A stretch of 64,000 bases of DNA from Isosphaeraceae bacterium EP7. GTDB lineage: Bacteria; Planctomycetota; Planctomycetia; Isosphaerales; Isosphaeraceae. The DNA is taken from assembly GCA_038400315.1 (NCBI GenBank), contig CP151667.1, positions 2,863,174 to 2,927,173 of the forward strand, read 5' to 3'. Position 1 is the stretch's first letter, and each line of letters opens with the position of its first letter. A program made the position numbers and the translations under genes. This document shows positions 11,577-16,731 of this stretch, piece after piece. Below the pieces are notes generated by a model. It did no database searches, was not told the origin of the DNA, and saw nothing but the letters and a program-made list of their open reading frames with translations.

Positions 11577-11626
11577 AGTCGCGCGGTCCAGTCTGGAGTT
11601 GGATGGTGCGACCCTTGGGAGGGGCG

Positions 11627-13576
11627 ATGAGTCGGATCGAGGAAGCGGGAGGGCGGCGGAGCCTGTCGGAAGTGCATGGGTCGGTGTCCGTGACGCATGC
11701 GAACCCTCTGAAACGGATGTACGCGTTCCTCGGGCCGGCCTATCTGGTGAGCGTCGGCTACATGGACCCGGGCAACTGGGCGACCGACCTGGAAGGGGGC
11801 GCACGCTTCGGCTACGCCCTGATCTGGGTGCTGCTGATGTCCAACCTCATCGCCGTGCTGCTCCAGACGCTCTCTGCCAGGCTTGGGGTGGTCACCGGCC
11901 ACGACCTGGCCCAGGCCTGCCGCGCCGAGTACTCGCGCCGGGTGAACTTCGCCCTCTGGCTGATGGCCGAGGTGGCGATCGCCGCCACCGACCTGGCCGA
12001 GGTGCTGGGCACGATCATCGCCCTGAAGCTGCTCTTCGGCCTGCCGATGCTCTGGGGCTGCCTGATCACGGCGCTCGACACGTTCCTGCTGCTCTGGCTG
12101 CAGAAGTTCGGCATGCGGAGGATGGAAGCGTTCATCCTGGCGCTGGTCTGCACCATCGGCGCCTGCTTCCTGCTCCAGATCGTGCTGGCCCAGCCCGACT
12201 TCGGCCTGATCGTCGGCGGCCTGAGGCCGTCCCTCCCGCCCGGCGCCCTGTTCGTGGCCATCGGGATCCTGGGCGCCACGGTGATGCCGCACAACCTCTA
12301 TTTGCACTCGGCCCTGGTCCAGTCGAGGCAGATCGGCCACGACCAGAAGAGCAAGGCGGTGGCCTGCAAGTACAACCTGATCGACACGGCCATCGCGCTG
12401 AACGCGGCCTTTTTCGTCAACGCGGCGATCCTGATCCTGAGCGCGGCGGTCTTCCACGCCAACGGCCAGAACGTGGCCAGCATCGAGGAAGCGTACAAGC
12501 TGCTGCCCACCTTTTTAGCCCCGGTGGCGCCCACCCTGTTCGGCATCGCGCTGCTGTGCGCCGGGCAGAGCTCAACGCTGACCGGGACGCTCGCCGGACA
12601 GATCGTGATGGAGGGCTACCTCGACCTGAAGGTGGCCCCCTGGCTCCGGCGCGTGGTCACGCGGTCGCTGGCGATCATCCCGGCAGTGGTCGTCATCTCG
12701 CTGACCGGCGAGGGCTCGACGCAGCAGTTGCTGGTGCTTAGCCAGGTGATCCTCAGCTTGCAGCTCTCCTTCGCGGTGATCCCCCTGATCCACTTCACGT
12801 CGGACGCCAAGAACATGGGGTCGTTCGCCACCCCCTGGTGGGGCAAGGCGCTCGCCTGGCTCTCGGCCGCCGCGATCGTGGGCCTCAACGGCAAGCTCGT
12901 CTTCGACCAGATCGACACCTGGATCGAGCTCGCGCGCAGCTCCAACCTGGCCCTGGGCCCCATCCCCGCCTGGTGGGCCGTTGCGGTCGCCCTCTACGGC
13001 CTGGCCGCCGCGGTCCTGGGCCTGCTCGCGTGGGTGACCCTGAAGCCCTGGCTTCAGCCGGCACCCGCCTGGACGCCCCAGCCCGCCATCGAGTTGGACT
13101 GGGCCGACGCCCTGCGCCCCCGGCCGCTGTCGACGATCGGCGTGGCCCTGGAGCACAACGCCAACGACGGCGAGATCCTCAACCGGGCCCTCAGCCTGGC
13201 CGCCGCAGGCAAGACGAGCCTGGTCCTGATCCACGTCGTGGACACCCCGATGACCCGAATCTACGGCGCCGAGACCGCCGACCGCGAGACCGAGGCCGAC
13301 GAGCGCTACCTCGCCGAGGTCGTCCGCGTCCTCGAGCAGAAGGGCTACGACGCCCGGGCCGTCCTCCTCTACGGCCCCGACCGGGCCGGCGAGATCGTCG
13401 GCTACCTGAGGCGCACCCCTGTCGACCTCCTCGTCGTCGGCTCCCACGGCCACGGCCTGGTCCGAGACCTCCTCTTCGGCCAGACCGTCGACAAGGTCCG
13501 CCACTCCCTGGAAATCCCCATGCTCGTCGCCCGGCCGGATCGGACGGCGGGTGGGCCGGTGGTTGAAGGGGCCTGA
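11627..13576 (+). CDS. NRAMP-type metal-ion transporter fused to a universal stress protein domain
   Basis: This 649-residue fusion begins with an NRAMP (MntH-like) proton-coupled divalent metal transporter of about eleven transmembrane segments, residues 30-480. The metal-binding motifs are visible as MDPGNWATD in the first helix and MPHNLYLHS in the sixth. After a linker, residues of about 505-645 form a universal stress protein domain: TIGVALEHNANDGEILNRAL, SLVLIHVVD and the nucleotide-binding loop VGSHGHGLVRDLLFG. The ATG at 11627 was chosen because GGGAGGGG lies directly upstream. NRAMP homologues usually take up manganese or iron; the C-terminal domain may make transport respond to nucleotide or stress state (inference). 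Confidence 0.92.
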   Translation: MSRIEEAGGRRSLSEVHGSVSVTHANPLKRMYAFLGPAYLVSVGYMDPGNWATDLEGGARFGYALIWVLLMSNLIAVLLQTLSARLGVVTGHDLAQACRAEYSRRVNFALWLMAEVAIAATDLAEVLGTIIALKLLFGLPMLWGCLITALDTFLLLWLQKFGMRRMEAFILALVCTIGACFLLQIVLAQPDFGLIVGGLRPSLPPGALFVAIGILGATVMPHNLYLHSALVQSRQIGHDQKSKAVACKYNLIDTAIALNAAFFVNAAILILSAAVFHANGQNVASIEEAYKLLPTFLAPVAPTLFGIALLCAGQSSTLTGTLAGQIVMEGYLDLKVAPWLRRVVTRSLAIIPAVVVISLTGEGSTQQLLVLSQVILSLQLSFAVIPLIHFTSDAKNMGSFATPWWGKALAWLSAAAIVGLNGKLVFDQIDTWIELARSSNLALGPIPAWWAVAVALYGLAAAVLGLLAWVTLKPWLQPAPAWTPQPAIELDWADALRPRPLSTIGVALEHNANDGEILNRALSLAAAGKTSLVLIHVVDTPMTRIYGAETADRETEADERYLAEVVRVLEQKGYDARAVLLYGPDRAGEIVGYLRRTPVDLLVVGSHGHGLVRDLLFGQTVDKVRHSLEIPMLVARPDRTAGGPVVEGA

Positions 13577-13617: not shown

Positions 13618-14064
13618 CTACAAACCAGCCAAGAGTCGATCAATCCGCTCTTCGAAGACCGGACGCTTCCGTCGAAGTGCGATCAGGACTTCTCGAACTG
13701 CGTGCTTCTCATCCTCGGAGAGATTCTCGAACGCGATCGCATAGGCGGCAAGGGTTCTCGGTGAATTCATGATTCGCATATGTATGATGGAAGCCCATCT
13801 TGGAGCGGTTCTCCAAAATTCAGGCAGGTGGCGAATGATTTCCCGAACGAAAATTCGATCGTCAAAAATCTCGATCGCATGAATAATCGAGAACATTAAT
13901 TCATCGAATTCTGCATGGTCATCAAGAAGTGACAATAAAACATCGACGGAGGCGGGGTCCTTGAGCTCGGCGATCTGCCCGATGATTTCCTCGGATCGTC
14001 GAACATAGCCTTCGGCCTGATTCCGCAACTCATTTTTTAGCTGATCGACCAGGACTTTGATCAT
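13618..14064 (-). CDS. Imm30-like immunity protein, orphan
   Basis: This all-helical protein of 148 residues carries the pattern of Imm30 immunity proteins: a repeat-like N-terminal half (EIIGQIAELKDPASVDVLLSLLDD), the acidic EFDELMFSIIHAIEIFDD block, then REIIRHLPEF, WASIIHMRIMNSP and ENLSEDEKHAVREVL. Such proteins neutralise polymorphic toxins delivered between cells. No toxin gene lies nearby, so if the assignment is right this is an orphan immunity gene. It is visibly richer in A and T than its neighbours, which suggests acquisition by transfer. An ATG nine codons upstream (14091) is an alternative start. Confidence 0.65.
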   Translation of the reverse strand: MIKVLVDQLKNELRNQAEGYVRRSEEIIGQIAELKDPASVDVLLSLLDDHAEFDELMFSIIHAIEIFDDRIFVREIIRHLPEFWRTAPRWASIIHMRIMNSPRTLAAYAIAFENLSEDEKHAVREVLIALRRKRPVFEERIDRLLAGL

Positions 14065-14109
14065 TCTTTCACTCGCCAAAGCCCAACACAACGCACGACC
14101 ACATGCGAA

Positions 14110-14691
14110 TCAATAAGGCGTGCCCGCCTGCCGGGCCGCCTTCAGGGCATTCGCATACCACTCCAGCTCATCCAGAAACTTGCCGGCTCGCTTGCGGGCC
14201 TTCTCGTCTCTGGGGTTGCCGGCGTCGTCGTAGGCGTCCTGCACGGCGGGGATGGGGAGGAGGGAGGGGATGCTGGGGGTTCCCAGCTCGCAGAGCATGG
14301 CCCTCAGCTGCATGGCGGCCCTGACTCCTCCGAAGGGGCCGGCGGAGTAGCAGACGATGGCGGAGGGGTGCCAGAAGTATTCTTCGAGGAAGTGGTCCAG
14401 GAGATTGGAGAGGGCGGGGGGGATGCTGTGGTTGTACTCGCCCGAGACGATGATGAAGGCGTCGGCCTGCTTGATCCGGGCGGCCAGGCGCTCCAGCGGG
14501 GCGGGGGCCTGGCCGGGGTCGTATTCCTTGTACATCCGGTCGAGGAGCGGGAACTGGTCTTCCATCGGGTCGACCAGGGTCGCCTTGTGGCCCCGCGCCA
14601 GGCACTCGCCGAGGATGAAGCGGGCGGCCTTGATCCCCTGGCGATGGTGGCGGACCGAGCCGTAGATGACGAGCAGGTCGAGGGGGGTCAT
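14110..14691 (-). CDS. NADPH-dependent FMN reductase family protein
   Basis: This is a flavodoxin-fold oxidoreductase of 193 residues. The FMN-phosphate loop is IYGSVRHHRQG near the N-terminus, the second conserved block is FIIVSGEYNHSIPPALSNLLDHF, and a third flavin-contact segment is CYSAGPFGGVRAAMQLR. These match the NADPH-dependent FMN reductase family that includes azo-, chromate- and quinone-reducing enzymes. It lies on the minus strand 60 bases downstream of the thioredoxin-reductase-like fusion and probably belongs to the same transcript (UBP finger, fusion, FMN reductase). Confidence 0.88.
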   Translation of the reverse strand: MTPLDLLVIYGSVRHHRQGIKAARFILGECLARGHKATLVDPMEDQFPLLDRMYKEYDPGQAPAPLERLAARIKQADAFIIVSGEYNHSIPPALSNLLDHFLEEYFWHPSAIVCYSAGPFGGVRAAMQLRAMLCELGTPSIPSLLPIPAVQDAYDDAGNPRDEKARKRAGKFLDELEWYANALKAARQAGTPY

Positions 14692-14751
14692 GGCGTTTCC
14701 TGAATGGGTCAGATCCGCGTCAATTGATGTTCGAATTTCGAGGGCGGGCGT

Positions 14752-16404
14752 TCACATCCCCTTGAGATACTCGTGCACGAACTGGACGGCCATCGAGCCC
14801 TCGCCGACGGCCGAGGCGACCCGCTTGACAGAGCCGGATCGGACGTCGCCGGCGGCGAAGACGCCGGGGCGGCTAGTCTCCAGGTGGAACGGGGGCCGGC
14901 GGGGGGTCCATCTCGCGGATCCCACCAGGTCGGGGCCTGTCAGGACGAACCCCTTGGCGTCGCGCTCGATCTCGGGGGGGAGCCACTCGACGCGCGGGAT
15001 CGCGCCGATGAAGCTGAACAGGGCGGGGGTCTCGATCGTGCGGACCTCGCCGGTCGTGTTGCTCGCCACCTCGACGGCGGTGAGGTGGCCTTCGCCCATC
15101 AAGCAGCGGACCTCGGAGTTGCAGAGCAGCTCGATGTTGGGGGTCTGCAGGAGGCGCTCGACCAGGTAGCTGGACATATTCCGATGCAGGTCGTTGCCCC
15201 GGATCAGGAGCCAGACGTGGCGGGCCTGGCCGGCGAGGAAGACGGCGGCCTGGCCGGCCGAGTTGCCGCCGCCGACGACCATCACGTCGGCACCGCGGCA
15301 CATGCTGATTTCATTGGGGGTCGCCGCGTAGTAGACGCCCCGGCCCTCCATGGGCTCGCAGCCTACGACGCCGAGCTTGCGGTACTCGGCCCCGGTGGCG
15401 ATCAGCATGCACTTGGCCGCGACCGTCTCGCCGCCCTCCAGCTGGAGCAGCGGGTATGGGCCATCGAAGGTCAGGCCGACGACCTGCGTGGGCACCGGCA
15501 TGCTGGCGCCGAACTTGTTGGCCTGCATGCAGGCCCGATCCGTCAGTTCGGCGCCGGTGATGCCCAAGGGGAACCCCAGGTAGTTCTCGATGCGCATGCT
15601 CCGGCCGGCCTGGCCGCCGGGCCCCGACTGCTCGAGGACCATCGTGCTCAGGCCTTCCGACGCCGCGTAGACCGCCGCGGCCAGGCCGGCGGGCCCCGAG
15701 CCGACCACCGCGAGGTCGTAGGTCGTCGCCTTGATCGAAGGGCGCAGGCCGGCGGCATCGGCGAGCTGCCGGTCCGTGGGATTGCGCAGGATCTTGCAAT
15801 GGCCCCAGGCGACGACGGGCGTGTCGGCCTCGCTCAGGCCGAGCTGGCGGAGCATCGTCTCCACCTCGGGGGCGGCCTCCAGGTCGAGCCAGGTGAACGG
15901 CATGCGGTTCTTGGCCAGGAACTCGCGCACCCGGAACGTGTCGCGCGAGTACCTCGACCCGATCACCCGCAGCCCCGTGAACGAGCCCGACTCGCGCAGG
16001 AGCTGGCGACGGGCGATGAACGCCTGGACGATGATGTCCCCCAGGGTGGGGTGGTCATTGAGGATCGTCCGCAGCGCCTCGATGGAGACCTCGTACACAT
16101 CGCAGTCGCCCCGCGCGACGGCGCAGACGAGCGGATGCCCGCCGGCCAGGTCGGACACCTCGCCGGTGAACTCCCCCGGGCCGATGATGACGATCGAGTT
16201 CGGCACGTCGCCCGTCTCATCGATGATTTCAACTTCACCCTTTTTGATGAAGAAGAACAGGTGCTCGACCGAGCAGGGCTCGAAGAGTCGCTCGCCTTCG
16301 CGATAACGTCGCGACGTCGTCAGGTGGCAGGCCCCCAGCTCGGCCATCTGGCGGTCGTCGAGCTTGGGCAACGCCACGGATCTCAGGTCGCCGAAGTCCC
16401 ACAT
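14752..16404 (-). CDS. Cyclic-nucleotide-binding domain / thioredoxin-reductase-like flavoprotein fusion
   Basis: This 550-residue protein has three parts. Residues of about 15-130 are a cyclic-nucleotide-binding domain (YREGERLFEPCSVEHLFFFIKKGEVEI, IIGPGEFTGEVSDLAGG). Residues 145-215 look like a thioredoxin-fold module without cysteines (IGSRYSRDTFRVREFLAKN, DTPVVAWG). Residues 228-545 form a thioredoxin-reductase-type flavoprotein with the FAD loop VVGSGPAGLAAAVYAA, the NADPH loop VMVVGGGNSAGQAA and the closing GVFAAGDVR. The redox-active CxxC of true thioredoxin reductases is absent; its place reads YYAATPNE. It is therefore unlikely to reduce thioredoxin directly. The upstream UBP zinc-finger gene is 39 bases away on the same strand. 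Confidence 0.9.
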   Translation of the reverse strand: MWDFGDLRSVALPKLDDRQMAELGACHLTTSRRYREGERLFEPCSVEHLFFFIKKGEVEIIDETGDVPNSIVIIGPGEFTGEVSDLAGGHPLVCAVARGDCDVYEVSIEALRTILNDHPTLGDIIVQAFIARRQLLRESGSFTGLRVIGSRYSRDTFRVREFLAKNRMPFTWLDLEAAPEVETMLRQLGLSEADTPVVAWGHCKILRNPTDRQLADAAGLRPSIKATTYDLAVVGSGPAGLAAAVYAASEGLSTMVLEQSGPGGQAGRSMRIENYLGFPLGITGAELTDRACMQANKFGASMPVPTQVVGLTFDGPYPLLQLEGGETVAAKCMLIATGAEYRKLGVVGCEPMEGRGVYYAATPNEISMCRGADVMVVGGGNSAGQAAVFLAGQARHVWLLIRGNDLHRNMSSYLVERLLQTPNIELLCNSEVRCLMGEGHLTAVEVASNTTGEVRTIETPALFSFIGAIPRVEWLPPEIERDAKGFVLTGPDLVGSARWTPRRPPFHLETSRPGVFAAGDVRSGSVKRVASAVGEGSMAVQFVHEYLKGM

Positions 16405-16443
16405 GATCTGCCTCCCGGGGGGATGGGTCGGGCCGGAATCCGT

Positions 16444-16731
16444 CTATCGCAGGAGCGGTTCGAACCGCGCGGGCACGTCCAGCTCGGCCTCGTGGACGTA
16501 GCACCAGCCCCAGCGCTCGCCGGGTTCGTAGGACGCCATGACCGGGTGGCCCGTCCCGTGAAAGTGCTTCGTGGCGTGCATGCCCGGCGAGCTATCGCAG
16601 CAGCCGACGTGTCCGCATTCCAGGCAGAGGCGGAGGTGGACCCAGGGCGTCCCCTCCTCCAGGCACTCCTCGCAACCGTCGGGGGTCTTCGCGGGCACGG
16701 GCTCGACGCCGTCGATGTGATGGCAGGCCAT
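16444..16731 (-). CDS. UBP-type zinc-finger protein
   Basis: This is a stand-alone UBP-type zinc finger of 95 residues, the fold that in eukaryotes binds the free C-terminus of ubiquitin. The metal ligands are the Cys/His-rich blocks MACHHID, GCEECLE, WVHLRLCLECGHVGCCDSS, HATKHFHGTGHP and the closing WCYVHEAEL. It is the first gene of a likely three-gene leftward unit with the flavoprotein fusion and the FMN reductase. Bacteria generally lack ubiquitin, so the ligand is unknown; its tight linkage to a redox enzyme hints at a partner role. About 235 bases upstream of it hold no gene. Confidence 0.9.
   Translation of the reverse strand: MACHHIDGVEPVPAKTPDGCEECLEEGTPWVHLRLCLECGHVGCCDSSPGMHATKHFHGTGHPVMASYEPGERWGWCYVHEAELDVPARFEPLLR

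Follow-up and report, generated by a model that had tools for sequence, protein, structure and literature searches.

In this work, we analyse a 64,000-nucleotide stretch of the genome of Isosphaeraceae bacterium EP7 (contig CP151667.1; hereafter 'the window'), in which a UBP-type zinc finger protein (the 'finger'), a fusion flavoprotein that we call FUS and an FMN reductase are encoded one after the other on the minus strand (Table 1). A preliminary description, made from the sequence alone, had reported these three genes together. We find all three in place, separated by gaps (39 nucleotides between finger and FUS, 60 between FUS and the FMN reductase) that make an operon plausible, and the FMN reductase probably belongs to it. 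The genome (7.2 Mb) has a single UBP finger and a single FUS. By comparing this locus with related ones, we find that, in the pairing of finger and FUS, a zinc finger otherwise associated with ubiquitin has a use conserved across many bacteria.

Table 1 Features of the finger–FUS locus, in positions of the window
Feature	Position	Strand	Remarks
UBP-type zinc finger protein, prokaryotic clade	16444..16731	-	95 aa; PF02148 E = 3e-14, 53.4 bits against a cut-off of 22.7
Fusion flavoprotein FUS	14752..16404	-	550 aa; CNB-like domain, Cys-less Trx/Grx-like domain and TrxR-like FAD/NADPH module; Pfam, NCBIfam and PDB matches
CNB-like domain of FUS, residues 32-118	16051..16311	-	PF00027 (cNMP_binding); cassette Arg missing (GEVSDLAGGHPLV)
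Trx/Grx-like domain of FUS, residues 144-218	15751..15975	-	SRYS instead of CxxC; from model and alignment
TrxR-like FAD/NADPH module of FUS, residues 227-550	14755..15726	-	GxGxxG, GGGNSAGQA and Arg402 retained
AATP, FUS residues 360-363	15316..15327	-	site of the lost CxxC; from family alignment
Cys369 of FUS	15298..15300	-	sole near-invariant cysteine; kept in 49 of 54 relatives
NADPH-dependent FMN reductase, flavodoxin-like	14110..14691	-	193 aa; PF03358 E = 7e-29
Imm30/HEAT-like protein	13618..14091	-	PF15565 E = 1e-15; fourth same-strand gene, missed by the preliminary description
CNB, cyclic nucleotide-binding; Trx, thioredoxin; Grx, glutaredoxin; TrxR, thioredoxin reductase.

The preliminary description had read FUS as a CNB domain joined to a Trx fold without cysteines and a TrxR-like part without its CxxC, and Pfam and NCBIfam matches agree with this reading, as does an AlphaFold2 model with a mean predicted local distance difference test (pLDDT) score of 83. 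The model comprises a CNB-like beta-roll followed by C-terminal helices, a Trx/Grx-like domain with the order beta-alpha-beta-alpha-beta-beta-alpha, and a TrxR module that matches PDB 5mh4 in the flavin-reducing arrangement (Z 35, root mean square deviation 2.4 over 300 residues). At the sequence level, FUS matches the thioredoxin reductase family TIGR01292 with an E value of 1e-62, yet its 212 bits stay below the cut-off of 343.

Both redox parts of FUS lack CxxC, and the motif is missing from the reductase site in all 54 relatives that we aligned. At this position, most of them read (Y/F)-A-A-T, with Ala361 in 54 of 54 and T362 in 44. Across the same alignment, the FAD motif GxGxxG and the NADPH motif GGGNSAGQA are essentially invariant, Arg402 is invariant and Glu365 is kept in 52 rows; Cys369 ends a short helix (residues 363-368 in the model) that follows the former CxxC. 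Because the CxxC-less state is common to the whole family while the cofactor motifs are kept, the loss is old and maintained rather than the result of decay. The genome also encodes an ordinary thioredoxin reductase with a CATC site, 36% identical to the FUS core, and the preliminary description had envisaged that such a paralogue would mark the pair as a decayed copy; as the CxxC-less state is family-wide, we rule this out. Its argument that FUS, being without CxxC, cannot reduce thioredoxin by the usual transfer of electrons gains from the alignment, and with the motif absent the annotation 'thioredoxin-disulfide reductase' is unjustified for the FUS family.

The finger carries the motif WVHLR.C..CG.VGCCDSS....HA.KH....HP......EPGE.W.WCY. 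As its own structure prediction was poor (pLDDT 52), we did not use it and took the solved homologue PDB 2IDA (roughly 50% identity) instead. Among 20 finger homologues, 28 columns are invariant, as are the zinc-ligand cysteines and histidines. Trp and WCY, which belong to the pocket of eukaryotic UBP fingers, are largely retained. In HDAC6, the pocket arginine R1155 grips the terminal carboxylate of the ubiquitin C terminus; in the finger, this position (Cys+2) is a serine of the CDSS motif. With this arginine absent, we disfavour a ubiquitin-like function, and binding of a ubiquitin C terminus in the manner of HDAC6 is unlikely. Fusion proteins of other genomes join the finger to Kef-type antiporters that carry TrkA domains (loci L107, L109 and L023), to LtrA (L111) or, in an Acidobacteriota genome (G500), to a DAC (c-di-AMP cyclase) domain (L113:2515-3525), and in the light of these fusions it behaves as a regulatory adaptor.

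We evaluated the pairing in 32 related loci that have a FUS gene of useful length. The finger adjoins FUS in 20 of them, always on the same strand, 9 times upstream and 11 times downstream; leaving out five finger-less loci in which the contig ends next to FUS, this corresponds to 20 of 27 evaluable loci. The pair occurs in six phyla, namely Nitrospirota, Acidobacteriota, Verrucomicrobiota, Planctomycetota, Cyanobacteria and Dadabacteria, and where no finger was seen beside FUS, 9 of the 11 genomes checked encode one elsewhere. Across 199 Acidobacteriota genomes, UBP and FUS are found together in 30 (UBP in 43 and FUS in 38 when counted singly; p = 3e-18, where co-occurrence counts and p values here and below ignore phylogeny). 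More distant FUS homologues of Planctomycetota, at 41-50% identity, have no finger within 1.5 kb, nor anywhere in the nine genomes checked, which makes the pairing clade-specific.

The gene-neighbourhood search proposed in the preliminary description thus bears out the linkage of finger and FUS; the conserved trio that it had assumed does not hold, as the FMN reductase recurs beside FUS in none of the related loci (the only match, with an E value of 0.006, lies about 7 kb away). We reject the trio, found in this window only, and regard the FMN reductase as a local neighbour, not a conserved partner. No homologue of the Imm30/HEAT-like protein, whose gene starts 18 nucleotides beyond that of the FMN reductase, was found near FUS in the related loci either. 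Further along, positions 11603-13576 encode an Nramp-type metal transporter that carries a C-terminal universal stress protein (Usp) domain.

The settings of the pair vary. It is also borne by plasmids of Rhodococcus, Nocardia, Streptomyces and rhizobia, and in both of the actinobacterial cases examined (L024 from Rhodococcus and L025 from Streptomyces) it ends a dnaK-grpE-dnaJ-cbpM-clpB-trxA operon. The thioredoxin of the Rhodococcus operon is TrxC-like, with a WCAPC site and extra N-terminal CxxC motifs. In Isosphaeraceae and Fischerella (L037, L056 and L057), the pair lies among genes for DJ-1/PfpI, aldo-keto reductase and Zn-alcohol dehydrogenase, which together may form a reactive-carbonyl stress island.

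The N terminus of FUS matches PF00027 with 41.9 bits (cut-off 27.5, E = 1e-10), and the solved domains closest to it include the cAMP/cGMP-binding domain of SthK. Most relatives have a phosphate-binding cassette of the form F-T-G-(D/E)-(V/I)-x-x-L-T-G-x-P-A. Residue 91 of FUS aligns with the cyclic-phosphate-binding arginine of the cAMP-binding SthK domain, and among the 47 relatives that carry the CNB-like domain this position is A, S, T, I, K, V or P and never Arg. A sister group of related planctomycete proteins has a response-regulator receiver where FUS has the CNB-like domain; L013, L018 and their relatives join such a receiver to the same Trx-like domain and CxxC-less TrxR part. In L106, a gene between FUS and finger (L106:6296-7759) codes for a CNB domain-containing protein that resembles histidine kinases. 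The preliminary description had called the system nucleotide-gated, a label left unsupported by the absence of the cassette arginine from all 47 relatives and by the receiver in the sister group. The sequence argues against canonical cyclic-nucleotide binding by FUS, and the CNB-like domain probably serves another purpose, as a module for input or assembly. As its sequence shows, FUS is a TrxR-fold FAD/NADPH enzyme with a family-wide replacement of CxxC and swappable N-terminal input domains, either CNB-like or receiver.

A second association concerns ergothioneine. Clustering of neighbouring genes showed that in Nitrospira and Bryobacterales the pair is flanked by genes for EgtD, for a protein resembling EgtB/OvoA and for an ABC importer of the OpuAC/OsmF type. 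Of 34 genomes that have a close homologue of FUS, 33 also have egtD. Among the 199 Acidobacteriota, 75 of which have egtD, the gene occurs in 35 of 38 FUS-positive compared to 40 of 161 FUS-negative genomes (p = 9e-15), in 41 of 43 genomes with a UBP finger (p = 2e-19) and in 11 of the 13 that are UBP-positive and FUS-negative. For 392 Planctomycetota, the corresponding numbers are 16 of 18 genomes with FUS and 72 of 374 others or, counted by genus, 12 of 13 with FUS and 54 of 254 without.

The two genes also lie close to each other: FUS and egtD are at most 10 kb apart in 6 of 35 Acidobacteriota genomes, where 0.2 would be expected. One locus has a same-strand run UBP-FUS-egtB-egtD (L103) and another UBP-FUS-egtB (L104), and in three further loci FUS-UBP-DUF5996 faces egtD-egtB (DUF5996 was assigned in L099 and L101; in L100, the facing egtD was placed from coordinates). 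The DUF5996 protein (L099:8418-9371 and L101:7980-8966), encoded directly after FUS-UBP and before egtD-egtB, is possibly the product of an ergothioneine-related gene. These two types of arrangement and that of Nitrospira fall into separate clades of a FUS tree (FastTree), whose deep nodes are weakly supported, and we make no claim about the number of independent gains. As controls, we used 80 of the same Acidobacteriota genomes: KatG is not associated with FUS (19 of 38 FUS-positive compared to 13 of 42 FUS-negative genomes), and for TreS the association has the same sign but is weaker (14 of 38 compared to 4 of 42). In genomes of at least 4 Mb, egtD is found in 31 of 33 with FUS and 6 of 14 without, and KatG in 18 of 33 and 9 of 14.

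Several observations weigh against tying the pair to ergothioneine. The genome of the window has complete egtB and egtD genes, although about 3.35 Mb from the pair; plasmids with the pair have egtD, but not beside it; and actinobacterial pairs sit in the dnaK-clpB-trxA chaperone operon instead. A UBP finger without egtD occurs in Deinobacterium chartae and in the archaeon Methanosarcina acetivorans, so the link does not hold everywhere. Within Planctomycetota, the egtD effect lies mainly between families, and the co-occurrence counts themselves ignore phylogeny. The egtB and egtD genes of the window's own genome (L117, C1:6226000-6238000) are bona fide and lie beside an EgtUV-like ABC importer in which OpuAC and permease are fused.

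To our minds, the chances are even that finger and FUS form a conserved redox module of two components within the thiol and oxidative stress response. Within that frame, FUS is most likely an NADPH-dependent flavoprotein that reduces an acceptor other than thioredoxin in defence against thiol stress, with the finger as its partner. Whereas architecture, conservation and association are read from sequences, the reaction is a proposal. From its motifs and fold, NADPH would reduce the FAD of FUS; as CxxC is missing, the reduced flavin would have to serve some acceptor other than thioredoxin where the loss of the motif leaves the site open, or reach thioredoxin by another route, and Cys369 and Glu365 may assist in reducing the acceptor. 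The CNB-like domain would sense a signal other than a cyclic nucleotide, or act as a scaffold, and the finger would dock on FUS as a regulator or an adaptor for the acceptor.

The contexts of the pair (thiol redox, chaperones, carbonyl detoxification and ergothioneine) suggest thiol and electrophile stress as its setting. Together with two precedents, the reduction of oxidised ergothioneine by mammalian thioredoxin reductase (PMC8868364) and the sulfenic acid product of EgtE, which has to be reduced and for whose reduction in vivo only cellular thiols in general have been suggested (PMC4493562), they lead us to favour the reduction of an oxidised low-molecular-weight thiol as the role of FUS. 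This is the most likely class of acceptor; within it, oxidised ergothioneine (disulfide or sulfenic acid) is the single best candidate, which we name tentatively and with low confidence. The N-terminal domains and the finger would tune such a reductase, with ergothioneine as the first thiol to consider. On the chemical side, it would be unusual for a flavin to reduce a disulfide or sulfenic acid directly where the enzyme has no redox-active disulfide. The stronger version, in which the pair is a dedicated ergothioneine system, FUS being the reductase or sensor of oxidised ergothioneine (the disulfide, or the sulfenic acid from EgtE) and the finger reading ergothioneine or ergothionylated proteins, we consider unlikely; in it, the same finger, with an aromatic pocket and no ubiquitin arginine, would serve as reader in the fusions with antiporters and a c-di-AMP cyclase domain as well.

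The ergothioneine association may instead reflect a lifestyle shared by aerobic soil bacteria with large genomes and say nothing about function, a reading that overlaps with the others and that we take as a real possibility, somewhat short of even. The weaker signal of TreS, the between-family effect in Planctomycetota and the UBP fingers without egtD speak for it, whereas the lack of association for KatG, the persistence of the association in genomes of at least 4 Mb and the same-strand egtB/egtD operons in separate FUS clades do not fit it well. FUS could also be a pseudo-reductase that senses redox state or NAD(P)H and relays its NADPH/FAD state through the CNB-like or receiver domain to the finger, which would act on target proteins. 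The loss of CxxC from both redox domains, the signalling-type input domains and the use of UBP fingers as regulatory modules in the antiporter, LtrA and DAC fusions are what one would expect of such a sensor, which we nevertheless rate as rather unlikely: the strong constraint on the FAD/NADPH motifs and on Cys369 and Glu365 suggests catalysis, and operons with egtB and egtD suggest metabolism.

We consider it improbable that the flavoenzyme is switched by cAMP or cGMP bound to its CNB domain and has the finger for a peptide-binding partner. The PF00027 match, SthK among the closest solved domains and the conserved fusion agree with this, whereas the arginine missing from every relative and the exchange for a receiver do not; the idea that the finger–FUS system must be driven by cyclic nucleotides is accordingly weakened. 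More improbable still is that FUS acts as a TrxR-type ferredoxin/flavodoxin-NADP reductase (FNR), with the adjacent FMN reductase accepting electrons or supplying reduced flavin. TrxR-type FNRs also lack CxxC and match FUS in structure (8c16, Z 28.4; 8c3m, Z 27.2), and the FMN reductase gene is immediately downstream, but it accompanies FUS only in this window, and FUS is nearer to TrxR than to FNR in both sequence and fold. The reduction by FUS of a non-thioredoxin acceptor, most likely an oxidised low-molecular-weight thiol, is our preferred reading.

If the association with ergothioneine survives a phylogeny-corrected test, it would suggest a specific substrate for a flavoenzyme that is widespread and misnamed thioredoxin-disulfide reductase and, if true, it would bear on how bacteria re-reduce oxidised ergothioneine. 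We found no papers on the pair, on the missing arginine or on the ergothioneine association, and nothing specific on a bacterial ergothioneine disulfide reductase, in the literature searched, which fell short of most subscription journals. The pairing as such is already known: NCBI annotates it and it was reportedly predicted in 2011, so that the window adds a further case of it. What appears new is the missing arginine and the association with ergothioneine.

In that 2011 prediction (Mol BioSyst), Burroughs, Iyer and Aravind reportedly placed the bacterial ZF-UBP in a cyclic-nucleotide-dependent redox system, in a role unrelated to ubiquitin. The partners there are reportedly the same (zinc finger, CNB domain and TrxR-like flavoprotein), and we indeed find a UBP finger beside a CNB-TrxR fusion; the cyclic-nucleotide dependence, in contrast, meets a FUS without the arginine needed for it. 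The pairs annotated by NCBI on Rhodococcus and Streptomyces plasmids, as a 'cyclic nucleotide-binding domain-containing thioredoxin-disulfide reductase' and a 'UBP-type zinc finger domain-containing protein', have the same architecture and order as the pair in the window.

Low-molecular-weight thioredoxin reductases (TIGR01292; PDB 5mh4 and 1f6m) share the FAD/NADPH fold of FUS, and AhpF also shares an N-terminal Trx-like part; FUS differs from both by the absence of CxxC from either domain and by its extra CNB-like domain. The bacillithiol disulfide reductase Bdr/YpdA and the TrxR-type FNRs are, like FUS, CxxC-less TrxR-like flavoproteins, and serve other acceptors. Their similarity to FUS is lower: FUS reaches only 49 bits against YpdA, where the cut-off is 340, and whereas Bdr carries a cysteine in its GxGPxG motif, FUS has none there. 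The finger, in turn, shares the UBP fold, the Trp and the WCY residues with Rhodopseudomonas palustris RPA1320 (PDB 2IDA) and with the ZnF-UBP domains of HDAC6 and USP16, and departs from HDAC6 in the serine that replaces R1155.

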